Shown here piece by piece: positions 714 to 9,263 of a stretch of 9,263 nucleotides of DNA. The notes beneath the pieces are model-generated. The model was not told the origin of the DNA. It searched no databases and worked only from the letters and a program-made list of their open reading frames with translations. Made by a program: the position numbers and the translations under genes. Source of the DNA: an uncultured Eubacteriales bacterium (GTDB lineage: Bacteria; Bacillota; Clostridia; Oscillospirales; Oscillospiraceae); assembly GCA_934567745.1 (NCBI GenBank), contig CAKTJM010000071.1:1-9263 (forward strand). The letters run 5' to 3'. Numbering within the stretch: position 1 is the stretch's first letter; each line of letters opens with the position of its first letter.

Positions 714-1154
714 TCAGCGCTGGCCTTCCAGATAGCCCTTGAGCCAGCGGATCGCTTCGCGGTAGCCGTCCAGGCCCAGGCCCATGTACGTCTTCACGCA
801 CGCCTGACCGGCGTAGGACACCTGGCGGAACGCCTCCCGCTGGGAGACGTCCGAGATGTGGACCTCCACCGCCGGGAGCGCCACGGCCTTGAGCGCGTCC
901 AAGATCGCCACGCTCGTGTGCGTGTAGGCCGCGGGGTTGATGACGATCCCGTCGAAGCGGCCGAGCGCCTCCTGGATCTTGTCCACGATCGCGCCCTCGT
1001 GGTTCGACTGGAAGACCTCGACGCCCAGGCCCTCCGCGGCGGCGGTCTCCTCCACCAGACGGACGAGGGCGGCGTAGTCCTGCCGCCCGTAGATCCCCGG
1101 CTCGCGGATGCCGAGCAGGTTCAGGTTCGGGCCGTTAATCACTAAAATGTTCAT
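714..1154 (-). CDS. aroQ: Type II 3-dehydroquinate dehydratase
   Basis: This enzyme dehydrates 3-dehydroquinate to 3-dehydroshikimate, the third shikimate step, through an enolate in a cytosolic dodecamer. The 146-residue length is normal for the type II family. Family motifs are clear: GPNLNLLG (8-15), REPGIYG (17-23) with the catalytic Tyr22 on the lid loop, SNHEG (50-54), NPAAYTHTS (73-81), EVHISD (97-102) with the catalytic His99, and REAFR (106-110). The ATG overlaps the end of the aroE-aroK gene by 20 bp. A strong GGAGG at 1165-1161, six bases upstream, supports the start. As last gene of the operon it is followed 11 bases later by a terminator. It supplies the dehydroquinase activity needed between AroB and AroE; no type I AroD is present. 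Confidence 0.96.
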   Translation of the reverse strand: MNILVINGPNLNLLGIREPGIYGRQDYAALVRLVEETAAAEGLGVEVFQSNHEGAIVDKIQEALGRFDGIVINPAAYTHTSVAILDALKAVALPAVEVHISDVSQREAFRQVSYAGQACVKTYMGLGLDGYREAIRWLKGYLEGQR

Positions 1155-2367
1155 AGACTTCCTCCACGCGCTGCACGACCCGGTCGATCGGCCCGTCGTT
1201 CGTCACCGTGAAGTCGGCGAACCGGCGGTACATCGGGAAGCGGATCGTGTACATGTCCTGCAGGCTCCCGCGCAGCGACAGCGGCCGCCCGCGCTTGGGG
1301 AGCTTCGACAGCTCCCGCTCCAGGAAGACGATCGCGCCGTTCTGGTGCAGCAGGGGATAGTTCTCCGGCTGCGTCACGCAGCCGCCGCCCGTCGCGATGA
1401 CTAGGCCGCTCTGCTTGCCCAGCTGGGCCAGCAGGGCGGTCTCATGCCGCCGGAACGCCTTCTCGCCCTTGAGGTTGATGTAGTCCGCGACCGGCATCTT
1501 CAGGATCTGCTCCAGCTCCGCGTCGCAGTCGAAGAAGGGACGGTCGAGCGCCTCGGCCAGCTTCCGCCCGACCGTGCTCTTGCCGCAGCCGGGCATGCCG
1601 ATCAGCACGCGGTTCTCCTTGCGGGCCATGAGCGCGCTGTAGGCCTCCTTCGTCCGGATGGACGGGATCGGCCGCCCCGTGAACCGCTGGGCCGCCTGCC
1701 GGGCCTGCTCGCACAGCATGTACAGCCCGCCCTGGGACGGGATGCCCAGCGCCTCGGCCTGCTGCATGAGCGCCGTGCGGGCCGGGTTGTAGATCAGGTC
1801 CAGGACCCCCTCGCAGCGCGGGAAGTCGCGCAGATCGATCGGGCAGGACGTCGTGTGGGGATACATCCCCACCGGCGTGGCGTTGACGATGACCGCCGCG
1901 TCCTGGTGGCGGTCGAGGTTCTCGTAGTTGTCCTCGCCCATGCGGGAGATGACCACGACCTGACCGGCCCCCAGCTTGCGCAGCACGTACTGCACCGCCA
2001 GGCTCGCGCCGCCGGAGCCGAGCACGAGGCACTTGCGCCCGAGCACGTGGATCCGGCTCTTCCAGACCATCGCCTCGAAGCCCGCCGCGTCCGTGTTGTC
2101 GCCGAGCAGCGCGCCGTCCGGCAGGCGCACGACGGTGTTCACGCTCCCAACGGCCTGGGCGGTCTCCGTCAGCTCGTCGCAGATGTCCAGCATCGTCGTC
2201 TTGTACGGGATCGTCACGTTCAGCCCGTGGAAGTCCCGCGTGCGCAAAAAGTCGCCCAGCTCCTCCGGCTTGACCTCGAAGAGGTCATAGTCGTAGTCGG
2301 CGAACATCGCGTGCAGCTCCTGGGACCAGCTGTGCCCGAGCTTTTCGCCCAACAGTCCACATCTCAT
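1135..2367 (-). CDS. aroE-aroK: Fused shikimate dehydrogenase-shikimate kinase
   Basis: One 410-residue chain joins two consecutive enzymes. Residues about 1-247 are shikimate dehydrogenase (NADPH-dependent reduction of 3-dehydroshikimate). They show GHSWSQELH (11-19) at the substrate site, NVTIPYK with catalytic Lys56, VNTV (76-79), GDNTDAAGF with Asp93, the nucleotide loop GSGGAS (117-122), NATPVGM (162-168) and GGLYMLCEQA (213-222). Residues about 252-410 are shikimate kinase (ATP-dependent formation of shikimate 3-phosphate). They show Walker A GMPGCGKST (257-265), DCD (280-282), EKAFRRHE (302-309), the GGG shikimate loop (327-329) and lid/adenine residues RGRPLS (359-364). Both domains look intact, with hardly any linker. 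The ATG follows the pheA stop by one base, with GAGGTGA upstream, so reinitiation is likely. The cofactor choice is family knowledge. Confidence 0.95.
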   Translation of the reverse strand: MRCGLLGEKLGHSWSQELHAMFADYDYDLFEVKPEELGDFLRTRDFHGLNVTIPYKTTMLDICDELTETAQAVGSVNTVVRLPDGALLGDNTDAAGFEAMVWKSRIHVLGRKCLVLGSGGASLAVQYVLRKLGAGQVVVISRMGEDNYENLDRHQDAAVIVNATPVGMYPHTTSCPIDLRDFPRCEGVLDLIYNPARTALMQQAEALGIPSQGGLYMLCEQARQAAQRFTGRPIPSIRTKEAYSALMARKENRVLIGMPGCGKSTVGRKLAEALDRPFFDCDAELEQILKMPVADYINLKGEKAFRRHETALLAQLGKQSGLVIATGGGCVTQPENYPLLHQNGAIVFLERELSKLPKRGRPLSLRGSLQDMYTIRFPMYRRFADFTVTNDGPIDRVVQRVEEVYEHFSD

Positions 2368-2368
2368 C

Positions 2369-3523
2369 TCACATCACCTCATGATAGCTGCCCAGATACT
2401 GGAACTCCTTCGCGAGGCCGTCCAGGTCGTCCATGAGACGGATGAACTCGTCGGAGTAGACCGAGGTCTCCAGGTCGAAATAGAAGAGGAACTCGAACTC
2501 GCGGTCCGGCAGGGGGCGGCTCTCCAGCTTGGTGAGGTTCAGGCCGAGGGCGTAGAACCGGGAGAGGGCCTGGTACAGTGCGCCGGGGCGATGCGGCAGG
2601 ACCAGCGCGAGGCTCGTCTTGTCCGCGCCGGGGTAGATCTGCATGTCCTTGGCGATGCAGATGAAGCGGGTGTAGTTGTTGCTGCGGTCCTGGATGTCCT
2701 GGGCCAGGACGTCCAGCCCGTACAGCTCGGCGCAGGCGGGGGAGGAGATCGCCGCGACGTCCGTGCGGCCGGACGCGGCGACCAGCGCGGCGGCCTGGGC
2801 GGTGTTCTCGCAGGGGGTGATGACCACGTCGCGGCCGAGCTTCTCCAGGAAGGCCCCGCACTGGCCGATGGCCTGGGGGTGGGAGTAGACCTCGTGCACG
2901 TCCGTCAGGGCCACGCCGGGACGGGCGACGAGGGCGTGGTCGATCTTCAGCCGCACGGCGCGGACGATGTGGAAGCGGTGGCGGCCCATGAGGTCGTAGA
3001 CCTCCTTGACCGAACCGGCGGTGCTGTTCTCGACGGGCAGGACGCCGAAGTCGCAGAAGCCGCTCTCGATGGCGGAGAAGACCGCCTCGAAGCTGCGGAA
3101 ATACTGGATCTCAGGCCGCTTGAAGAGCTTCTCGCAGGCGAGCTGGGAATAGGCGCCCTCGACGCCCTGGCAGGCCACGGTGGCCGTGGGCGGGAAGAGG
3201 GCGGGGGTGGCGGCCAGCGCCTGCTCGATCTCCTGCCGCAGGGGAGAGGGATCGGTGCGTCCGTCGCTCTGATAGCTGCGGCTCAGGGCGAAGAGGAAGC
3301 TGTAGAGGGACGCGCCGTACTGCTCCAGCTCCGGCGGGAGACGGCGGACGATGTCGTTGAGCTTCTGCCGCTCACGGGCGGGGTCGTAGATGGGGCGGCC
3401 CTCCGCCTTCTTCTCTTTGCCGATCTCGGCGGCGACGGACATGCGCTCGGCGAAGGCCTGGAGCAGGGCGTCGTCGGCTTCGTCGATCTGCTTGCGGAGG
3501 GCTTCTAAGGTCAGAGGTTCCAT
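2369..3523 (-). CDS. pheA: Chorismate mutase-prephenate dehydratase (P-protein) with ACT domain
   Basis: This bifunctional 384-residue enzyme turns chorismate into prephenate and then phenylpyruvate, the precursor of Phe. Residues 1-88 form an AroQ-class chorismate mutase. R10, R27, K38, D47, R50, E51 and Q85 match the active-site set of the E. coli P-protein. Residues about 113-292 form the prephenate dehydratase, including VENSTAGSV (164-172), SHPQAIGQC (214-222) and the catalytic TRF motif (285-287). Residues about 303-380 form an ACT domain with GALYQAL (314-320) and ESRP (334-337), the Phe-binding motifs of feedback-inhibited P-proteins. The start overlaps aroC by 13 bp and has AAAGGGA upstream. 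Feedback by Phe is inferred from these motifs. Confidence 0.96.
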   Translation of the reverse strand: MEPLTLEALRKQIDEADDALLQAFAERMSVAAEIGKEKKAEGRPIYDPARERQKLNDIVRRLPPELEQYGASLYSFLFALSRSYQSDGRTDPSPLRQEIEQALAATPALFPPTATVACQGVEGAYSQLACEKLFKRPEIQYFRSFEAVFSAIESGFCDFGVLPVENSTAGSVKEVYDLMGRHRFHIVRAVRLKIDHALVARPGVALTDVHEVYSHPQAIGQCGAFLEKLGRDVVITPCENTAQAAALVAASGRTDVAAISSPACAELYGLDVLAQDIQDRSNNYTRFICIAKDMQIYPGADKTSLALVLPHRPGALYQALSRFYALGLNLTKLESRPLPDREFEFLFYFDLETSVYSDEFIRLMDDLDGLAKEFQYLGSYHEVM

Positions 3524-4617
3524 GGCTTGTTCCCTTTCTGCTCAAGGAGAGCGTCGTAGATGGCGATGGCGGCGGCGGCCTCGAGGCACGGAACCGCGCG
3601 GGGGACGATACAGGGGTCGTGGCGGCCGGGGACGGTGAGGGTCGCGCCCTCGCCCCGGCTCAGGGAGACGCTCTCCTGCGGGCGGGCGATGGAGGGCGTG
3701 GGCTTGACCGTGGCCCGGAAGAGGAGGGGCATCCCGGTCGTGATGCCGCCGAGGATGCCCCCGGCGTGGTTCGTGCGGGTGCGGACCCTGCCGTCCGCGT
3801 CGTAATAGAAGGGGTCGTTGTGCGCGCTGCCGGTCATGGCGGCGGCGCGGGACCCGGCCCCGAACTCCAGGGCCTTGACCGCGGGCACGGCGAAGACGAG
3901 CCGCGCGATGCGGTTCTCCATCCCATCGAGCGTCGGGTCGCCCAGTCCGACGGGCAGACCGAGGGCCGCGCACTCGATGACGCCGCCGAGGGAGTCGCCC
4001 TCGGCCTTGGCCGCGGCGATGGCGGCCTGCATCCGGGACCCGGCCTCGTCGTCGGTGACGGGGAAGGGCTTCTCGCCGGGGGAGAGCAGGTCCGACGGGT
4101 CGAGGGCGACGGGGTCGAAGGGCTCGTCGCTCTCCCCGCCGATGGCGGCGATGTGCGCGCCGACGAGGATGCCCTGCCGCGCGAGGAGCTGCTTGCAGAT
4201 GCCTCCCGCGATGCACAGGGCCGCGGTCAGGCGGCCGGAGAAGTGCCCGCCGCCGGTGGGGTCCTGGAAGCCGCCGTACTTCACCTGCGCGGTGTAGTCG
4301 GCGTGGCCGGGCCGGGGCACGTCCTGGAGCTTGGCATAGTCGCCCGGGCGGGTGTTCCCGTTGCGGATGATCGCCGCCAGGGGCGCGCCGCAGGTGCGGC
4401 CGTCGTACAGGCCGGAGAGGATCTCGGGCACGTCGCTCTCCTTGCGGGGGGTGCTCCACGGGTCGCGGCCGGGGGCGCGGCGGTCGAGGAAGCGCTGGAG
4501 CGCGTCGAGATCGACCGGCTCGCCGGGGGGCAGCCCGTCGAGGGTGACGCCGATCGCGGGGCCGTGCGACTGGCCGAAGATGGTCATCGTCAGCGCGCCG
4601 TGATAGGTGCTGCTCAT
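3511..4617 (-). CDS. aroC: Chorismate synthase
   Basis: This FMN-dependent lyase removes phosphate from 5-enolpyruvylshikimate 3-phosphate to give chorismate, the branch-point compound. The 368-residue length is typical. Signatures are present: GQSHG (15-19) with the conserved His18, RPGHAD (102-107), GGHFSGR (123-129), NHAGGILGGI (283-292) with the second conserved His, and RHDPC (332-336). The start is set by an ATGA overlap with the aroA stop (4617/4614) and by the family N-terminus. The gene ends inside the first codons of pheA, which uses its product. There is no flavin reductase domain; the enzyme would need reduced FMN from the cell or an intrinsic NADPH activity, which cannot be read from sequence. 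Confidence 0.97.
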   Translation of the reverse strand: MSSTYHGALTMTIFGQSHGPAIGVTLDGLPPGEPVDLDALQRFLDRRAPGRDPWSTPRKESDVPEILSGLYDGRTCGAPLAAIIRNGNTRPGDYAKLQDVPRPGHADYTAQVKYGGFQDPTGGGHFSGRLTAALCIAGGICKQLLARQGILVGAHIAAIGGESDEPFDPVALDPSDLLSPGEKPFPVTDDEAGSRMQAAIAAAKAEGDSLGGVIECAALGLPVGLGDPTLDGMENRIARLVFAVPAVKALEFGAGSRAAAMTGSAHNDPFYYDADGRVRTRTNHAGGILGGITTGMPLLFRATVKPTPSIARPQESVSLSRGEGATLTVPGRHDPCIVPRAVPCLEAAAAIAIYDALLEQKGNKPWNL

Positions 4618-5885
4618 ACGCTCGCCTCCCCGGTCAGCCCGTCGAGGACGGTCCAGAAGGAGGGGTAGGACTTCTCCACGGCCTCGGCGTCGATCAGTGC
4701 GACGGGGGCCGCGCAGGCCCGCGCGGCGACGGCCGCGGCCATCGCCAGCCGGTGGTCCCCGGCGAAGGGGACGGGGCCGCCGGAGAGCTGCGCCCGCCCC
4801 TCGATGGTGAGCGTGTCGCCCTCCTCCTGCGCCTCGGCCCCGAGGGCCCGCAGGAGCGCGGCGGTGGTGGCCAGACGGTCGGATTCCTTCAGGCGCAGCC
4901 GCCCGGCGTTGCGGACGACGCTCCGCCCCGGCACGCACGCGGCCAGCGCGGCCACGACGGGCACGAGGTCGGGGACCTGGTCGGCGTCGAGGGCGATCGG
5001 CCGGAGCTCGCCCGGCCGGACGGTGACGGCGTCGCCGTCCGCCGTGACCTGGGCGCCCATCTCGGACAGGATCCGGACGATCGCGCGGTCGCCCTGAGCG
5101 GACGCTTGGTCCAGCCCGGTGACGGTGATCCCGGTCCCGCCGAGCGCGCCCATGCACAGCCACGGGGCGGCGTTGGACCAGTCGCCCTCGACGGAGACGG
5201 TGCCGGGGCTGAGCAGCCCCAGCCCGTCCAGACGCCAGCGGCCGGACCCGTCGCTATGCGGTTCGGCGGCGAAGGCGCGCAGGGCCCGGACGGTCATGTC
5301 CACATAGCCCGCGGAGGCGAGCGGCCCGTCCACGGTGACGGTGCTCTCGCGCATCAGGCAGGACAGGCCGAGGAGCAGGCCGGAGACGAACTGGGAGGAG
5401 ACGTCGCCGGGGAGGTGGTAGTCGCCCGCCTCCAGGCGGCCGGAGACGTGGATGAGCTGCTGGTCCGTCCCGTAGCGGACGGTGCAGCCGTGGGCCTCCA
5501 GCTCCCGCACCAGCGGGCCGAGGGGCCGCTGGAAGAGCCGCCCGGCGGTGTGGAAGCTGGCGTTGGCCCCCAGCGCGGCCACGACGGGCAGGAGGAAGCG
5601 CAGGGTGGAGCCGCTCTCGCCGCAGTCGAGGTCGCAGTGCTCCGGCAGGCAGCCGCGGTCGAGCGGCATGACCTGGAAGACGCCCTCGTCCCATGGCTCG
5701 ATCTCGGCCCCGAGGGCGGTCAGGCAGCGGATGGTGGCCTCGATGTCCTGCGAGGTGCCCTCGCAGGCGACCCAGGTGGGCTTGTCGGCGACGGCGGCGC
5801 AGATGAGCAGCCGGTGCGCGGCGGATTTGGACCCGATCGCCCGGACGGTGCCGGAGACGGGGCCGGTGGTCAGTAGCTTCTTCAT
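4614..5885 (-). CDS. aroA: 5-enolpyruvylshikimate-3-phosphate (EPSP) synthase
   Basis: This enzyme transfers the enolpyruvyl group of PEP to shikimate 3-phosphate; it is the target of glyphosate. The 423-residue length fits the two-domain inverse alpha/beta barrel. Visible active-site elements are GSKSAAHR (18-25, Lys20 and Arg25), the PEP loop GESGSTLR (89-96, Arg96), SSQ (163-165), the aspartate in VPDLVP (Asp306), KESDR (333-337) and DHR (377-379). The loop keeps Gly92 at the position matching Gly96 of the E. coli enzyme; Ala there gives insensitivity in some enzymes, so a sensitive enzyme is likely, though not certain. The ATG overlaps the aroB stop as ATGA, and the stop overlaps aroC in the same way. 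Confidence 0.96.
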   Translation of the reverse strand: MKKLLTTGPVSGTVRAIGSKSAAHRLLICAAVADKPTWVACEGTSQDIEATIRCLTALGAEIEPWDEGVFQVMPLDRGCLPEHCDLDCGESGSTLRFLLPVVAALGANASFHTAGRLFQRPLGPLVRELEAHGCTVRYGTDQQLIHVSGRLEAGDYHLPGDVSSQFVSGLLLGLSCLMRESTVTVDGPLASAGYVDMTVRALRAFAAEPHSDGSGRWRLDGLGLLSPGTVSVEGDWSNAAPWLCMGALGGTGITVTGLDQASAQGDRAIVRILSEMGAQVTADGDAVTVRPGELRPIALDADQVPDLVPVVAALAACVPGRSVVRNAGRLRLKESDRLATTAALLRALGAEAQEEGDTLTIEGRAQLSGGPVPFAGDHRLAMAAAVAARACAAPVALIDAEAVEKSYPSFWTVLDGLTGEASV

Positions 5886-6940
5886 TGGGACAGCCCTCTT
5901 TCGATCCAAAGTGCCATCTGGTCCACCGGGACGGGGCAGAGCTCGCTCCGCCCCCAGGCGCGGGGCAGGACCAGGGTGAGCGTATCGCCCGCGCGCTTCT
6001 TGTCGGAGAGCAGCGGCTCCCGGAGCGCGTCGGCGGTGTAGTCGGTGGTGGTGGGCAGGCCGTGGCGCGTCAGCAGCGCGCCCAGGCGCGGCGGGACGTC
6101 GGCCGGGCACAGCCCGGCGGCGACGGCGGCCCGCGCGGCCATCATCATGCCGATGGCGACGGCCCTGCCGTGGGAGACGGCGTACCTGCTGCACGCCTCG
6201 ACCCCGTGGCCGAAGGTGTGGCCGAGGTTGAGCAGCTGCCGCGCGCCGGTGTCGAACTCGTCCTGCTCGACGAGGTCGCGCTTGTGCGCGACGCAGCGGG
6301 CGACGACGGTCTCGGCTTCGTCGCGGAGGTCGGCCCGCTCCAGCAGGTCGAGCAGCGCTGCGTCGCCGATCATGCCGTACTTGATGACCTCCGCGCAGCC
6401 GTCGGCGAAGTCCGCCGGGGGCAGGGTGGCCAGCGTGTCGAGGTCGCACAGGACGAGCCGCGGCTGGCAGAAGGCCCCGGCGAGGTTCTTGCCGTGGGCG
6501 AGGTCGATGGCGGTCTTGCCGCCGACGGACGCATCGACGGCGGCCAGCAGGGTGGTCGGGACCTGGACGAAGGCGGTGCCGCGCAGATAGGTCGCCGCCG
6601 CGAAGCCGGTCAGGTCCCCCACCACGCCGCCGCCCAGGGCGACCAGACAGTCGGCGCGGGTGAGGTGCCGCTGGGCCAGGTCCTCCAGCAGGGCGAGGTA
6701 GGTCCGGCCGTTCTTCGAGCCCTCCCCCGCCGGGAAGACGAAGGAGGAGGTCGCGAAGCCCGCGGCGCGCAGGCTCGCCTCGGCCTGCGCCAGGTAGAGC
6801 GGGGCGACGTTCGTGTCGGAGACGATGGCGGCGGTGCGGCCGCGGACGACCGCGGCCGTCCGCGCGCCCAGCTCGGCGAGCAGGCCGCGGCCGATCGGGA
6901 CCTCATAGGTCCGCGAGGCGTGGACGGTGACGGTGGTCAT
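5882..6940 (-). CDS. aroB: 3-dehydroquinate synthase
   Basis: This NAD- and metal-dependent enzyme cyclises DAHP to 3-dehydroquinate, the second shikimate step. The 352-residue length is standard. It carries the NAD-site motif GGGVVGD (103-109), PTTLLAAVDASVGGKTAID (128-146) and AEVIKYG (183-189). LNLGHTFGH (237-245) and SHGRAVAIGM (256-265) follow. Glu184, His241 and His257 are the expected metal ligands. The chosen ATG (6940) overlaps the tyrA stop as ATGA and gives the usual family N-terminus; the open frame continues upstream inside tyrA but shows no family sequence there. It directly follows tyrA rather than aroF, so enzyme order in the operon does not follow pathway order. Confidence 0.97.
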   Translation of the reverse strand: MTTVTVHASRTYEVPIGRGLLAELGARTAAVVRGRTAAIVSDTNVAPLYLAQAEASLRAAGFATSSFVFPAGEGSKNGRTYLALLEDLAQRHLTRADCLVALGGGVVGDLTGFAAATYLRGTAFVQVPTTLLAAVDASVGGKTAIDLAHGKNLAGAFCQPRLVLCDLDTLATLPPADFADGCAEVIKYGMIGDAALLDLLERADLRDEAETVVARCVAHKRDLVEQDEFDTGARQLLNLGHTFGHGVEACSRYAVSHGRAVAIGMMMAARAAVAAGLCPADVPPRLGALLTRHGLPTTTDYTADALREPLLSDKKRAGDTLTLVLPRAWGRSELCPVPVDQMALWIERGLSQ

Positions 6941-7773
6941 CGGCCGTCCACCTCCTTCTTGATCCGGCGGCCGTCGTCGAGGAGCTGCCGCAGGCGGGGG
7001 AAGTCCCGGTCGGCCAGGGCGTCGCGGTACTCCGCGAGGTGGCCGATCAGGCAGTCCAGCTCGTCCAGCAGCGGCTCGCGGTCCTCCAGGAACAGCTCCG
7101 CCCACATGTCGGGGTCGAGCCAGGCCACACGGGTGAGGTCCCGGTAGCTCCCGGCGGAGAAGCCGTCGTGCTCGCGGGCGGTGGGGCTCTTGACGTAGGC
7201 GTTGGAGACCACGTGCGCGAGCTGGGAGGTGAAGGCGATCCGGCGGTCGTGGGCCTCGGCGGTGGTCAGGGAGATCCGCCCGAAGCCCGCCGGGGCGAGG
7301 AGCCGCTTGGCCTCGTCGAGCAGCTCGATGTCGTCGAAGGACGGCGGGACGAGGACCATGGGCGCGCCGTCGAAGAGGTCGGCGCGGCTGTACTTGAAGC
7401 CGGAGAACTGGGTCCCGGCCATCGGGTGCCCGCCGAGGAAGCGGAAGCCGTGCTCCGCGGCGAGGGGGAAGGCCCGCGCGCACACGCGCGCCTTCGTCCC
7501 GGCGCAGTCGATGACCATGGTGTGCGGGGCCAGCAGGGGCGCGAGCCGTTCGAGCTGCTGCACCACCGCCTCGGGGTAGACGGCCAGGAGCAGCAGGTCC
7601 AGCTCCGCCAGCCGGTCGTCGGTGAGCGGGGCGTCGATGGCCCCGGCGAGCTGGGCGAACTCGGTGACGCTCTCGTTGGCGTCCCAGCCGAGGACGGTCA
7701 GCTCCGGCGTGCGCCGGTAGGACTTGGCCAGGGACCCGCCGATCAGACCGAGGCCGATGATCCCGACGGTCAT
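6937..7773 (-). CDS. tyrA: Prephenate dehydrogenase, single-domain type without ACT
   Basis: The enzyme oxidatively decarboxylates prephenate to 4-hydroxyphenylpyruvate, the precursor of Tyr. The 278-residue protein starts with a Rossmann motif GLGLIGGS (7-14). Asp31 at the end of the second strand suggests preference for NAD over NADP. HPMAG (116-120) carries the catalytic His116. SQLAHVVS (183-190) and GSYRDLTR (208-215), with Arg211, match the prephenate-binding helices of the family. The protein ends soon after this helical domain, so there is no C-terminal ACT domain as in longer TyrA proteins and no fused chorismate mutase. The ATG (7773) overlaps the aroF stop as ATGA. The mutase activity it needs must come from PheA or elsewhere. 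Arogenate as substrate cannot be excluded. Confidence 0.94.
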   Translation of the reverse strand: MTVGIIGLGLIGGSLAKSYRRTPELTVLGWDANESVTEFAQLAGAIDAPLTDDRLAELDLLLLAVYPEAVVQQLERLAPLLAPHTMVIDCAGTKARVCARAFPLAAEHGFRFLGGHPMAGTQFSGFKYSRADLFDGAPMVLVPPSFDDIELLDEAKRLLAPAGFGRISLTTAEAHDRRIAFTSQLAHVVSNAYVKSPTAREHDGFSAGSYRDLTRVAWLDPDMWAELFLEDREPLLDELDCLIGHLAEYRDALADRDFPRLRQLLDDGRRIKKEVDGR

Positions 7774-8777
7774 GCCTGCATCGCCTCCCGGACTTTGAGG
7801 ATCCGCTTGGCGGTCTCGGCGAACTGGGCGGGCGTGAGGGACTGCGCGCCGTCGCACAGGGCGTGGATGGGATCGTTGTGGACCTCGATCATGATGCCGT
7901 CGGCCCCGGCGGCCGCCGCGGCCATGGCCATCGGCTCGACGAGGTCGGCGTGGCCGGTGGCGTGGCTGGGATCGACGACGACGGGCAGGTGGGTGAGCTT
8001 CTTCAGCACCGGCACGGCGGACAGGTCGAGGGTGTTGCGGGTGTAGGTGCTCTCATAGGTGCGGATGCCGCGCTCGCAGAGGATGACGTCCTCGTTGCCG
8101 TTGGCCATGATATACTCGGCGCTCATGAGCAGCTCCTTGATGGTCCCGGCCAGGCCGCGCTTGAGGAGGATGGGCTTATGGGTCTTGCCCAGCTCCTTGA
8201 GCATGTCGAAGTTCTGGGTGTTGCGCGCGCCGACCTGGATGACGTCCACGTCCTCGAAGAGGGGCAGGTTGCGGATGTCCATGATCTCGGTGACGATGGG
8301 CAGGCCGGTGGCGCGCTTGGCCTCCAGCAGCAGGCGGATGCCCTCGGCGCCGAGGCCCTGGAAGTCGTAGGGCGAGGTGCGGGGCTTGAACGCGCCGCCG
8401 CGCAGGAAGGTCGCCCCGGCGGCCTTCACGTCCTCGGCCACGCCGATGATCTGGCTCTCGGTCTCGACGGAGCACGGACCGGCGATCAGCCCGAAGGCGC
8501 CGCCGCCGATGGCGGCGGGACCGGCCTGGATGACGGTGTCGTCGGGGTGGAACTTTCGGTTGACGGCCTTGAAGGGGTCGGACACGCGGGTGACGGCCTC
8601 GACGATGTCGAGGGAGGCGATCATGTCCATATCGACGGCGCTCGTGTCGCCGATCAGACCGAGGACGGTCTGGAACTTGCCCTCGGAGACGTGGACGCCC
8701 AGGCCCTGGGCCTTGAGCCAGTGGATGAGATGTTCGGTGCGCTCGGGAGAAGCGCCGGGTTTCAAGATCGCGATCAT
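7770..8777 (-). CDS. aroF: DAHP synthase, type I-beta with N-terminal regulatory domain
   Basis: This enzyme condenses PEP and erythrose 4-phosphate into DAHP and commits carbon to the pathway. The 335-residue protein resembles the type I-beta enzyme of Thermotoga maritima. Residues 1 to about 70 form the ferredoxin-like (ACT-related) domain that binds Tyr/Phe in that relative, and the rest is the TIM barrel. Metal ligands fall at the remembered Thermotoga positions: Cys102 (AGPCS), His272 (DPSHATG), Glu298 (IEVH) and Asp309. KPRTSPY (131-137) contacts substrate. Start 8777 lies nine bases after AAGGAAGGA (8795-8787). An in-frame ATG at 8786 abuts that site and is too close. The frame stays open to 8858 inside the terminator, but that part is leader RNA. 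Symbols aroG or aroA(Q) are also used for this family. Confidence 0.96.
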   Translation of the reverse strand: MIAILKPGASPERTEHLIHWLKAQGLGVHVSEGKFQTVLGLIGDTSAVDMDMIASLDIVEAVTRVSDPFKAVNRKFHPDDTVIQAGPAAIGGGAFGLIAGPCSVETESQIIGVAEDVKAAGATFLRGGAFKPRTSPYDFQGLGAEGIRLLLEAKRATGLPIVTEIMDIRNLPLFEDVDVIQVGARNTQNFDMLKELGKTHKPILLKRGLAGTIKELLMSAEYIMANGNEDVILCERGIRTYESTYTRNTLDLSAVPVLKKLTHLPVVVDPSHATGHADLVEPMAMAAAAAGADGIMIEVHNDPIHALCDGAQSLTPAQFAETAKRILKVREAMQA

Positions 8778-8841
8778 GTGGATCATTCCTTCCTTACGTC
8801 TTAGGATGCCCTTCTGTGCGGCGGGCGTCTCGTGCCGGGAC

Positions 8842-8879
8842 AAAAAAATACACCACACAGAATGGTATCTGTGTGGTGT
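8842..8879 (-). terminator. Attenuator (intrinsic terminator) before aroF
   Basis: On the minus strand ACACCACACAGA (8879-8868) pairs perfectly with TCTGTGTGGTGT (8861-8850) around a six-base loop. After one A comes a run of seven T (8848-8842). It is a textbook intrinsic terminator, placed 65 bases before the aroF ATG and after the operon promoter, so by default it would stop transcription before the enzymes. Its upstream arm can instead pair with the antiterminator segment. Confidence 0.93.
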
Positions 8880-8946
8880 CGAAACATTCGATCAAAAGTG
8901 GGGGACGGTCATCGGCCCTCTGTTCAGCACAGCACAAACCACCATT
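8861..8946 (-). promoter_or_regulatory. Predicted antiterminator pairing
   Basis: RNA from 8946-8928 can pair with 8861-8878. The pairing runs AAUGGU with ACCAUU, then after one bulged G seven pairs (8939-8933 with 8867-8873, two of them G-U), two mismatches, and three more pairs (8930-8928 with 8876-8878). This consumes most of the terminator's upstream arm, so the two structures exclude each other. Its 5' segment overlaps the leader peptide stop codon, so a ribosome finishing the peptide would cover it. Pairing was done by eye, without energies. Confidence 0.7.
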
Positions 8947-8976
8947 ACTTTATTCCGTTGGAGCGGGTAAAGTAAT
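8944..8976 (-). promoter_or_regulatory. Leader hairpin over the Tyr/Phe codons
   Basis: AUUACUUUA (8976-8968) pairs perfectly with UAAAGUAAU (8952-8944). Inside it CCG (8966-8964) can pair with CGG (8957-8955). The 5' arm contains the last Tyr and Phe codons of the leader peptide and the 3' arm contains its stop codon. This is the place of the 1:2 pause hairpin of classic amino acid attenuators; a ribosome stalled at the Tyr/Phe codons would open it. It overlaps the antiterminator segment by only three bases. Confidence 0.7.
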
Positions 8977-9019
8977 AGCCGTAAAAGCATGCGGTGTCGA
9001 GCAGAGCACAGAGCTTCAT
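8945..9019 (-). CDS. Phe/Tyr leader peptide of the attenuator
   Basis: A 24-codon frame starts at ATG 9019, nine bases after AAAGGA (9034-9029), and ends with TAA at 8947-8945. Residues 12-17 read FYGYYF, so five of six consecutive codons (8986-8969) call for Phe or Tyr. There is no Trp. The frame lies just after the operon promoter and before a terminator with a competing fold, the arrangement of ribosome-mediated attenuation. When charged tRNA-Phe or tRNA-Tyr is scarce, a ribosome should stall here and favour read-through. The peptide is probably not functional as a protein. No T-box consensus (AGGGUGGNACCGCG) is seen in the leader, so this is not a T-box switch. Confidence is high on composition and placement; there is no experimental support. 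Confidence 0.88.
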   Translation of the reverse strand: MKLCALLDTACFYGYYFTRSNGIK

Positions 9020-9049
9020 AGCGGTCCGTCCTTTCTCTGATTTGGTGAC

Positions 9050-9078
9050 ATCCTATCACAACTGTCGAAGTCTGTCAA
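9050..9078 (-). promoter_or_regulatory. Promoter of the aro operon
   Basis: TTGACA (9078-9073), a perfect -35, is followed by a 17-bp spacer and TAGGAT (9055-9050) preceded by TGA, an extended -10. Transcription would start near the A at 9043, giving a leader RNA of roughly 200 bases to the terminator's T run. It is the only strong promoter seen for the operon. It lies 17 bases past the stop of the upstream GtrA-like gene. Confidence 0.88.
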
Positions 9079-9095
9079 GAGCGAGTTTTGGCGGT

Positions 9096-9263
9096 CTAAT
9101 GATGCCACGGATGGCCGGGGTAGAGGATGAGCTTCCGGCCGAAGAAATTCCAGAAGAAGACGAGGAAGCTGCTGAGCAGCTTGGAGACCATGAAGTACAG
9201 ATGGAGCTTCGACGTGAAGAGGAACATCAGTCCCATGGTCAGCAGCAGCCCGACGCCGGAGAT
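9096..9263 (-). CDS. C-terminal part of a GtrA-like membrane protein
   Basis: Only the last 55 residues are visible; the gene continues beyond the right edge and ends at TAG (9098-9096). The segment has two hydrophobic stretches, one around GVGLLLTMGLMFLF and one around SSFLVFFWNFFGRK, then a short tail ending in HPWHH. The pattern 'SK(L)...VFFWNFFGRK' is typical of the C-terminal transmembrane helix of GtrA-family proteins, small four-helix membrane proteins linked to moving lipid-linked sugars for cell-surface polysaccharides. It could be a stand-alone GtrA protein or the tail of a glycosyltransferase-GtrA fusion. It has no evident link to aromatic biosynthesis. No clear terminator separates it from the aro promoter. 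Confidence 0.75.
   Translation of the reverse strand: MSGVGLLLTMGLMFLFTSKLHLYFMVSKLLSSFLVFFWNFFGRKLILYPGHPWHH

Follow-up and report, generated by a model that had tools for sequence, protein, structure and literature searches.

The aro operon carried by the 9,263-nucleotide stretch of DNA analysed here (the window) is preceded by an element that is very probably a ribosome-mediated transcription attenuator sensing phenylalanine and tyrosine. The attenuators of the enterobacterial trp, his and phe operons combine a translated leader that holds regulatory codons with an antiterminator, an upstream pairing exclusive of it, and an intrinsic terminator; the window likewise has a codon run in a leader, a predicted upstream pairing that would exclude an antiterminator, and a terminator-like hairpin before the first gene. 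It differs from them in that the leader holds the codons of two amino acids, Phe and Tyr, that a full chorismate-to-Phe/Tyr operon follows, and that the host belongs to the Clostridia. The parts are as follows.

9050..9078, minus strand: promoter-like site, TTGACA, 17 nt, TAGGAT, with an extended -10 TG; a consensus match only, at 10/12 positions
9030..9034, minus strand: Shine-Dalgarno-like AAAGG, 10 nt 5' of the leader ATG
8945..9019, minus strand: leader peptide frame, 24 codons from ATG, then TAA, MKLCALLDTACFYGYYFTRSNGIK
8969..8986, minus strand: putative regulatory codon run FYGYYF, residues 12-17, TTT TAC GGC TAT TAC TTT
8968..8976, minus strand: 5' arm of hairpin P1, within the Tyr-Tyr-Phe codons; perfect 9-nt inverted repeat
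8944..8952, minus strand: 3' arm of P1, which shares positions with the stop codon and with the 5' arm of the antiterminator
8933..8946, minus strand: predicted antiterminator 5' arm, AAUGGUGGUUUGUG, from the nascent-RNA fold and own-versus-swapped pairing
8861..8873, minus strand: predicted antiterminator 3' arm, CACAGAUACCAUU, within the terminator 5' arm and loop
8850..8879, minus strand: intrinsic-terminator-like hairpin, 12/12 pairs, -20.3 kcal/mol
8842..8849, minus strand: U-rich tract ATTTTTTT, 3' of the terminator hairpin
7770..8777, minus strand: DAHP synthase of the aroF type, the operon's first structural gene (NF006421, 471 bits, above cut-off)
714..7773, minus strand: remaining operon, with tyrA-like, aroB, aroA, aroC, chorismate mutase-pheA, aroE-aroK fusion and aroQ genes

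An earlier note on this DNA had proposed a 24-codon frame with its own Shine-Dalgarno site and FYGYYF at residues 12-17, set between a promoter and a terminator and followed by genes of both branches. Each of these was recovered: the frame at 9019-8945 with AAAGG 10 nt 5' of its ATG, the codons at 8986-8969, the promoter-like site at 9078-9050 and the terminator-like hairpin at 8879-8850 on either side of the leader, and tyrA-like and pheA-like genes in the operon. The hairpin is directly followed on its 3' side by ATTTTTTTGT, and the aroF start codon, at 8777 or 8786, lies 3' of it. Shuffles of 8600-9263 led us to expect 0.2 promoter-like sites this good and 0.6 terminator-like sites of any strength. 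Curated NCBIfam cut-offs were passed by aroB, aroA, aroC, prephenate dehydratase and aroQ, and the tyrA, chorismate mutase, aroE and aroK matches were under the cut-offs.

No Rfam family matched the window at gathering score, amino acid leaders, the Phe leader and the T-box included, which at that score rules out any such element there; a scan of 8780-9100 at a permissive E-value returned just two unrelated chance-level matches, and a tRNA search of the window returned none. The aroE and aroK genes share a single frame (window 1135-2367, minus strand), with shikimate dehydrogenase followed by shikimate kinase. A further open frame at 9096-9263 (minus strand), with the look of a membrane protein, ends just 5' of the promoter-like site.

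A leader was scored wherever the 450 nt 5' of aroF contained a short frame with at least 5 Phe/Tyr in 8 residues. The density found in the window (5/8 residues) was matched in 39/800 dinucleotide-shuffled upstream regions (about 5%), and because of this the window's lone case is suggestive only. We therefore rest the argument on relatives: an AroF scan of contigs from one genome per species gave at least 574 confirmed stretches, from which the best 80 loci, with 66-87% AroF identity to the window, were kept; among the matches listed, the closest loci were from draft genomes including Candidatus Evtepia faecavium. A Phe/Tyr frame was present 5' of aroF in 71/81 sequences (these 80 loci plus the window), and the antisense control on the same 81 upstream sequences gave 3/81. 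Counted by locus, 70/79 relatives with enough upstream sequence have the leader (L047, with 57 nt, was left out), and the recurrence of Phe/Tyr runs followed by a terminator in front of aroF in related Clostridia, which the earlier note had put forward as a check on its proposal, came out in its favour. This comparative evidence, and not the window's frame alone, settles that the frame is more than a chance occurrence.

One assembly gave both L069 and L074, and the 71 leaders amount to 69 distinct peptides, which range among the relatives from 15 to 35 residues. An SD-like site of at least 4 nt was found in 66/71 leaders, and a hairpin with a T-rich stretch was found 3' of the leader in 71/71 (median -19.2 kcal/mol), the hairpin being better than -8 kcal/mol in 69/71 and weak in L055 (-2.2) and L080 (-6.8). 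Over the 71 leaders, Phe and Tyr per run averaged 6.6 in the leaders' own frame versus 1.6 and 1.3 in the other frames, an excess that is partly by construction because the runs were picked in frame. Three loci (L008, L015, L061) are on contigs labelled Thermoguttaceae, Treponemataceae or Treponema and have a clostridial-type aroF, two of them with the leader; these contigs are either mis-binned or transferred.

The composition of the 69 distinct peptides points to both branch products. Phe makes up 19.2% and Tyr 19.3% of their residues, Trp 0.3% and His 0.7%, and 67/69 contain at least two Phe plus at least two Tyr. The proposal that the leader reads both end products of the branches encoded downstream is thus well matched by the peptides and by the tyrA-like and pheA-like genes. 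Trp codons are not favoured in the leaders.

Three parts of an attenuator can be read from the letters of the window, namely a putative ribosome-binding site of the leader's own, clustered end-product codons, and a predicted terminator before the first gene. A fourth, an antiterminator that would exclude the terminator and itself be excluded by P1 or by a ribosome that has reached the stop codon, comes from computation. P1 pairs 8976-8968, within the Tyr-Tyr-Phe codons, with 8952-8944, and the antiterminator pairs 8946-8933 with 8873-8861; the latter overlaps the P1 3' arm and the terminator 5' arm and loop, and so excludes both. We folded the nascent RNA at the stage where the terminator 3' arm has yet to be transcribed, taking the ribosome to cover 9 nt past the A-site codon. 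In this model the probability of the antiterminator was 0.91 with the ribosome stalled at Tyr15 or Phe17 and 0.03 with the ribosome at the stop codon; in the ribosome-free RNA it was 0.00, and that of P1 was 0.987. With the ribosome halted at Phe12, where the run begins, most of P1 could still form. With full-length RNA the terminator won in all four modelled states (probability 0.985 even with a stalled ribosome), and since it is the more stable structure at full length the switch must be kinetic, with the ribosome close behind RNA polymerase. The analysis as a whole supports the ribosome-stalling logic claimed in the earlier note, and the predicted mutually exclusive antiterminator, absent from that note, was found besides.

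From these parts we infer a mechanism in which RNA polymerase would start near 9050 and a ribosome would translate the leader behind it, the supply of charged tRNA-Phe and tRNA-Tyr being what the leader would read. A shortage of Phe or Tyr would hold the ribosome at Tyr15, Tyr16 or Phe17, where it would cover the P1 5' arm and so free 8946-8933 to pair with 8873-8861; with the antiterminator formed, the terminator would come too late and the operon would be transcribed. When Phe and Tyr are plentiful, a ribosome at the stop codon (8947-8945) would mask the antiterminator 5' arm and the terminator would form. Were the leader left untranslated, P1 would keep the antiterminator from forming, and transcription would by default terminate.

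The same model was applied to 69 loci, the 71 leader-bearing sequences minus the two with weak hairpins. At 9 nt of cover the mean probability of the antiterminator was 0.84 at the best run codon, 0.29 at the stop codon, 0.22 in ribosome-free RNA and 0.36 when the ribosome was placed on the start codon. The antiterminator pairs were picked by best duplex, here as in the 47 loci described below, a choice that favours high values overall, though no one ribosome state above another. A probability of 0.5 was reached in 65/69 loci for the run, 19/69 for the stop codon, 15/69 without a ribosome and 25/69 for the start codon. Covers of 6 nt or 12 nt gave 0.84 and 0.83 for the run and 0.40 and 0.19 for the stop codon. 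The zone in which the antiterminator was favoured opens about 12 codons ahead of the last run codon and closes 4 codons past it, and is so broad that the model backs the geometry and does not single out the Phe/Tyr codons.

Pairing partners also proved specific to their own locus. Across the 69 loci the post-run region paired with its own terminator 5' arm and loop at a mean of -15.2 kcal/mol versus -11.7 kcal/mol for swapped partners, and the codon run paired with its own post-run region (P1) at -13.0 versus -10.1 kcal/mol; for antiterminator and P1 alike 0/5000 permutations were as good as own pairing, in swap tests that ignore shared ancestry. Covariation in a fixed register was followed in the 51/69 sequences with a TTT-N-TG anchor, of which 25 lacking exact anchors were dropped to leave 26, or 20 distinct rows. 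Each of the six positions 5' of the UUUGUG anchor is paired in between 8 and 19 of the 20 rows; shuffles that did as well numbered 8, 75, 93, 125, 740 and 2102 out of 5000. Position-by-position covariation is accordingly modest, one of the six positions falling below 10/5000. Fully paired variants exist in this register (L007, L008 and L049, for example), and the window itself pairs at just 2/6 because of a bulged G. Bulges and shifted registers make the fixed-register count too rigid, and the register-free duplex test carries more weight.

The breadth of the element was gauged in an even draw of 157 genomes of class Clostridia centred on G002, 116 of which had a DAHP-synthase match. The 500 nt upstream of 100 listed matches were taken, nearly in rank order (for L182, 431 nt including 60 coding bases). 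Start-truncated matches, some second copies, matches at contig ends and the lowest-ranked matches were left out, and the sample consequently leans to copies resembling the window's AroF; a few loci repeat the first set, the L119 peptide being that of L029. A Phe/Tyr frame was found in 52/100 upstream regions, the antisense frame alone reaching 15/100. The full set of frame, SD-like site and terminator (-12 kcal/mol or better) was found in 47/100 versus 0/100 in antisense, leaving 53/100 without it, and at least one leader-bearing copy occurred in 46/85 clostridial genomes sampled. Leaders diverge strongly in this sample, as in L197 (KYYFYFSWGYFYFSTGYFFCKK) and L200 (YFSFFTYAFFAFYFFFF). An Rfam scan of 11 leader-bearing loci from the sample matched no family, T-box included.

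In the 47 loci with the full set, own antiterminator pairing averaged -14.6 versus -9.6 for swapped partners, with 0/5000 permutations as good. The modelled probability of the antiterminator was 0.83 at the run, 0.08 at the stop codon and 0.35 without a ribosome, and 0.5 was reached in 45/47, 4/47 and 18/47 loci, respectively. P1 was weaker here (-8.8 versus -8.0, 23/5000 permutations as good). In seven loci of the sample (L171, L190, L191, L195, L197, L205 and L207) we noted leaders of another style, in which two Phe/Tyr clusters flank a short spacer (FYFSWGYFYF, for example) and the tail is long; the early cluster may be a separate stall site.

Other explanations of the same parts were weighed against attenuation. 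The terminator might be constitutive, or regulated in another way by a bound protein or a riboswitch, and the Phe/Tyr frame might be a by-product of a U/A-rich hairpin arm. The codon run is itself an arm of P1, so RNA pairing alone constrains part of the run, as such a by-product would have it, and yet an SD-like site accompanies the start codon of the frame in 66/71 leaders, Phe and Tyr also occur 5' of the P1 arm (Phe12-Tyr13 in the window, for example), and in the class sample P1 is much weaker while frame, SD-like site and terminator persist in 47/100; nor does any Rfam riboswitch or leader family match the window. We consider this explanation improbable.

A short aromatic peptide followed by a switch would also fit nascent-peptide arrest of the TnaC kind, in which the peptide itself would stall the ribosome by binding, within the exit tunnel, Phe or Tyr in free form. 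Arrest peptides are sequence-specific, unlike these variable leader peptides, which vary from 15 to 35 residues and have little in common beyond Phe/Tyr density, and the modelled antiterminator forms across many codons around the run and not at one fixed codon; arrest is in our view very unlikely. Finally, leader translation might act through Rho-dependent termination or through access to the aroF start site and not through the intrinsic terminator, an idea to which the two relatives with weak hairpins (L055, -2.2 kcal/mol; L080, -6.8 kcal/mol) lend some colour. Against it, a U-tracted hairpin better than -8 kcal/mol is present in 69/71, with a terminator 5' arm matched to the post-run region, and we give this route hardly any credence.

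Control of amino acid genes in Gram-positive bacteria is usually told in terms of T-boxes and RNA-binding proteins, and a T-box binds tRNA directly, with no need of leader translation. The leader is absent in 9/79 relatives (L013, L022, L028, L042, L050, L053, L057, L058 and L061). One of these, L042, has a T-box (RF00230) at 3629-3894, in the leader's place before aroF, which suggests that the two sensing systems substitute for each other at this gene; the window has the leader and no T-box, and a covariance-model scan of L001-L003 found no T-box. By eye, aroF lies less than about 80 nt after a coding-like stretch in five others (L013, L022, L050, L053 and L057), and L028, L058 and L061 have neither a T-box nor a close upstream coding-like stretch. 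A search farther 5' (3.2-4 kb, at a threshold of 6/8 Phe/Tyr) found no leader in the eight leaderless loci without a T-box. Among the sampled clostridial DAHP-synthase upstream regions, the Phe/Tyr switch parts are present in 47/100 versus a T-box motif in 8/100 (Rfam confirmed 6/8), which never occurred alongside a Phe/Tyr frame.

Panina et al. reportedly dealt with aromatic regulation in low-GC Gram-positives in 2003. Two candidate uORFs encoding Phe and Tyr, associated with shikimate metabolism genes, are described in the legend to Fig. 6b of Stav 2019 (PMC6429828); they share Phe and Tyr with the leaders reported here, a comparison by description, the legend naming no organism and the text giving no switch anatomy. 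A Phe uORF 5' of aroF beside a terminator, uORFC-13-1, was reported from Acholeplasma and environmental sequences with 24 representatives (Brewer 2021, PMC8632094); aroF and terminator are as here, and its description speaks of at least one Phe residue and mentions no Tyr run. With these two reports the idea is partly in print. The earlier note had contrasted enterobacterial-type logic with Gram-positive practice, and this contrast did not hold: by 2005 predictions of leader-peptide attenuators existed for Actinobacteria, those described including no Phe or Tyr case (PMC1262725), and by 2010 predictions of His leader peptides for bacilli, in a paper whose authors stated that to their knowledge no such systems had been shown outside Proteobacteria and Actinobacteria before (PMC2965389). 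Some Firmicutes are likewise described as having His attenuators (PMC9413887). These Firmicutes systems (PMC2965389, PMC9413887) share with ours leader-peptide attenuation of Gram-positive amino acid genes, and as described they concern histidine in few lineages, whereas here Phe and Tyr are concerned in 46/85 sampled clostridial genomes. Upstream attenuators were predicted for tyrA operons, Firmicutes included, in passages that mention no leader peptides (PMC1173090); the uORF candidates described in PMC11109978 include none that is aromatic, and T-boxes have been surveyed (PMC2494555). The open-access literature searched yielded neither the breadth among Clostridia nor the joint Phe/Tyr run nor the switch anatomy.

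A wider reading, which we regard as possible while leaning slightly against it, is that the Phe/Tyr branch is controlled mainly by ribosome-read Phe/Tyr attenuation in all of class Clostridia, its function kept while peptides and RNAs changed in sequence until almost unrecognisable, with leading ribosomes close behind RNA polymerase in a phylum classed as one of runaway transcription. That classification of the Bacillota (PMC13323073) counts against a ribosome close behind RNA polymerase. The switch would work only if the ribosome keeps pace with RNA polymerase and, if true, would thus offer a direct test of clostridial transcription-translation coupling. It would also mean that many clostridial genomes, among them many drafts labelled as gut and rumen metagenome assemblies, hold a leader gene of 15-35 codons that is likely missed by gene callers.

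Turning to the Trp branch, a TrpE search gave no match in the drafts G001 and G002 (L001, L002), which are the closest to the window by AroF identity, and matches in G003, G004 and G005. It is possible that G001 and G002 are Trp auxotrophs, and in such relatives the pathway may serve no Trp. The second DAHP synthase of G004 and G005 (L086, L087) shares a contig with TrpE and lies, by eye, 3' of TrpF-like and TrpA-like frames; from its place beside Trp genes, a first enzyme of its own seems to serve the Trp branch in some relatives. There is no intergenic space for a leader before this second enzyme in L086 and L087. Neither hisG, scanned in five genomes, nor trpE, scanned in three, was preceded by a convincing leader rich in His or Trp; hisG may lie inside its operon in the genomes scanned. 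A T-box-like motif, under the Rfam gathering score, is present 5' of trpE in G004 (L217:1311).
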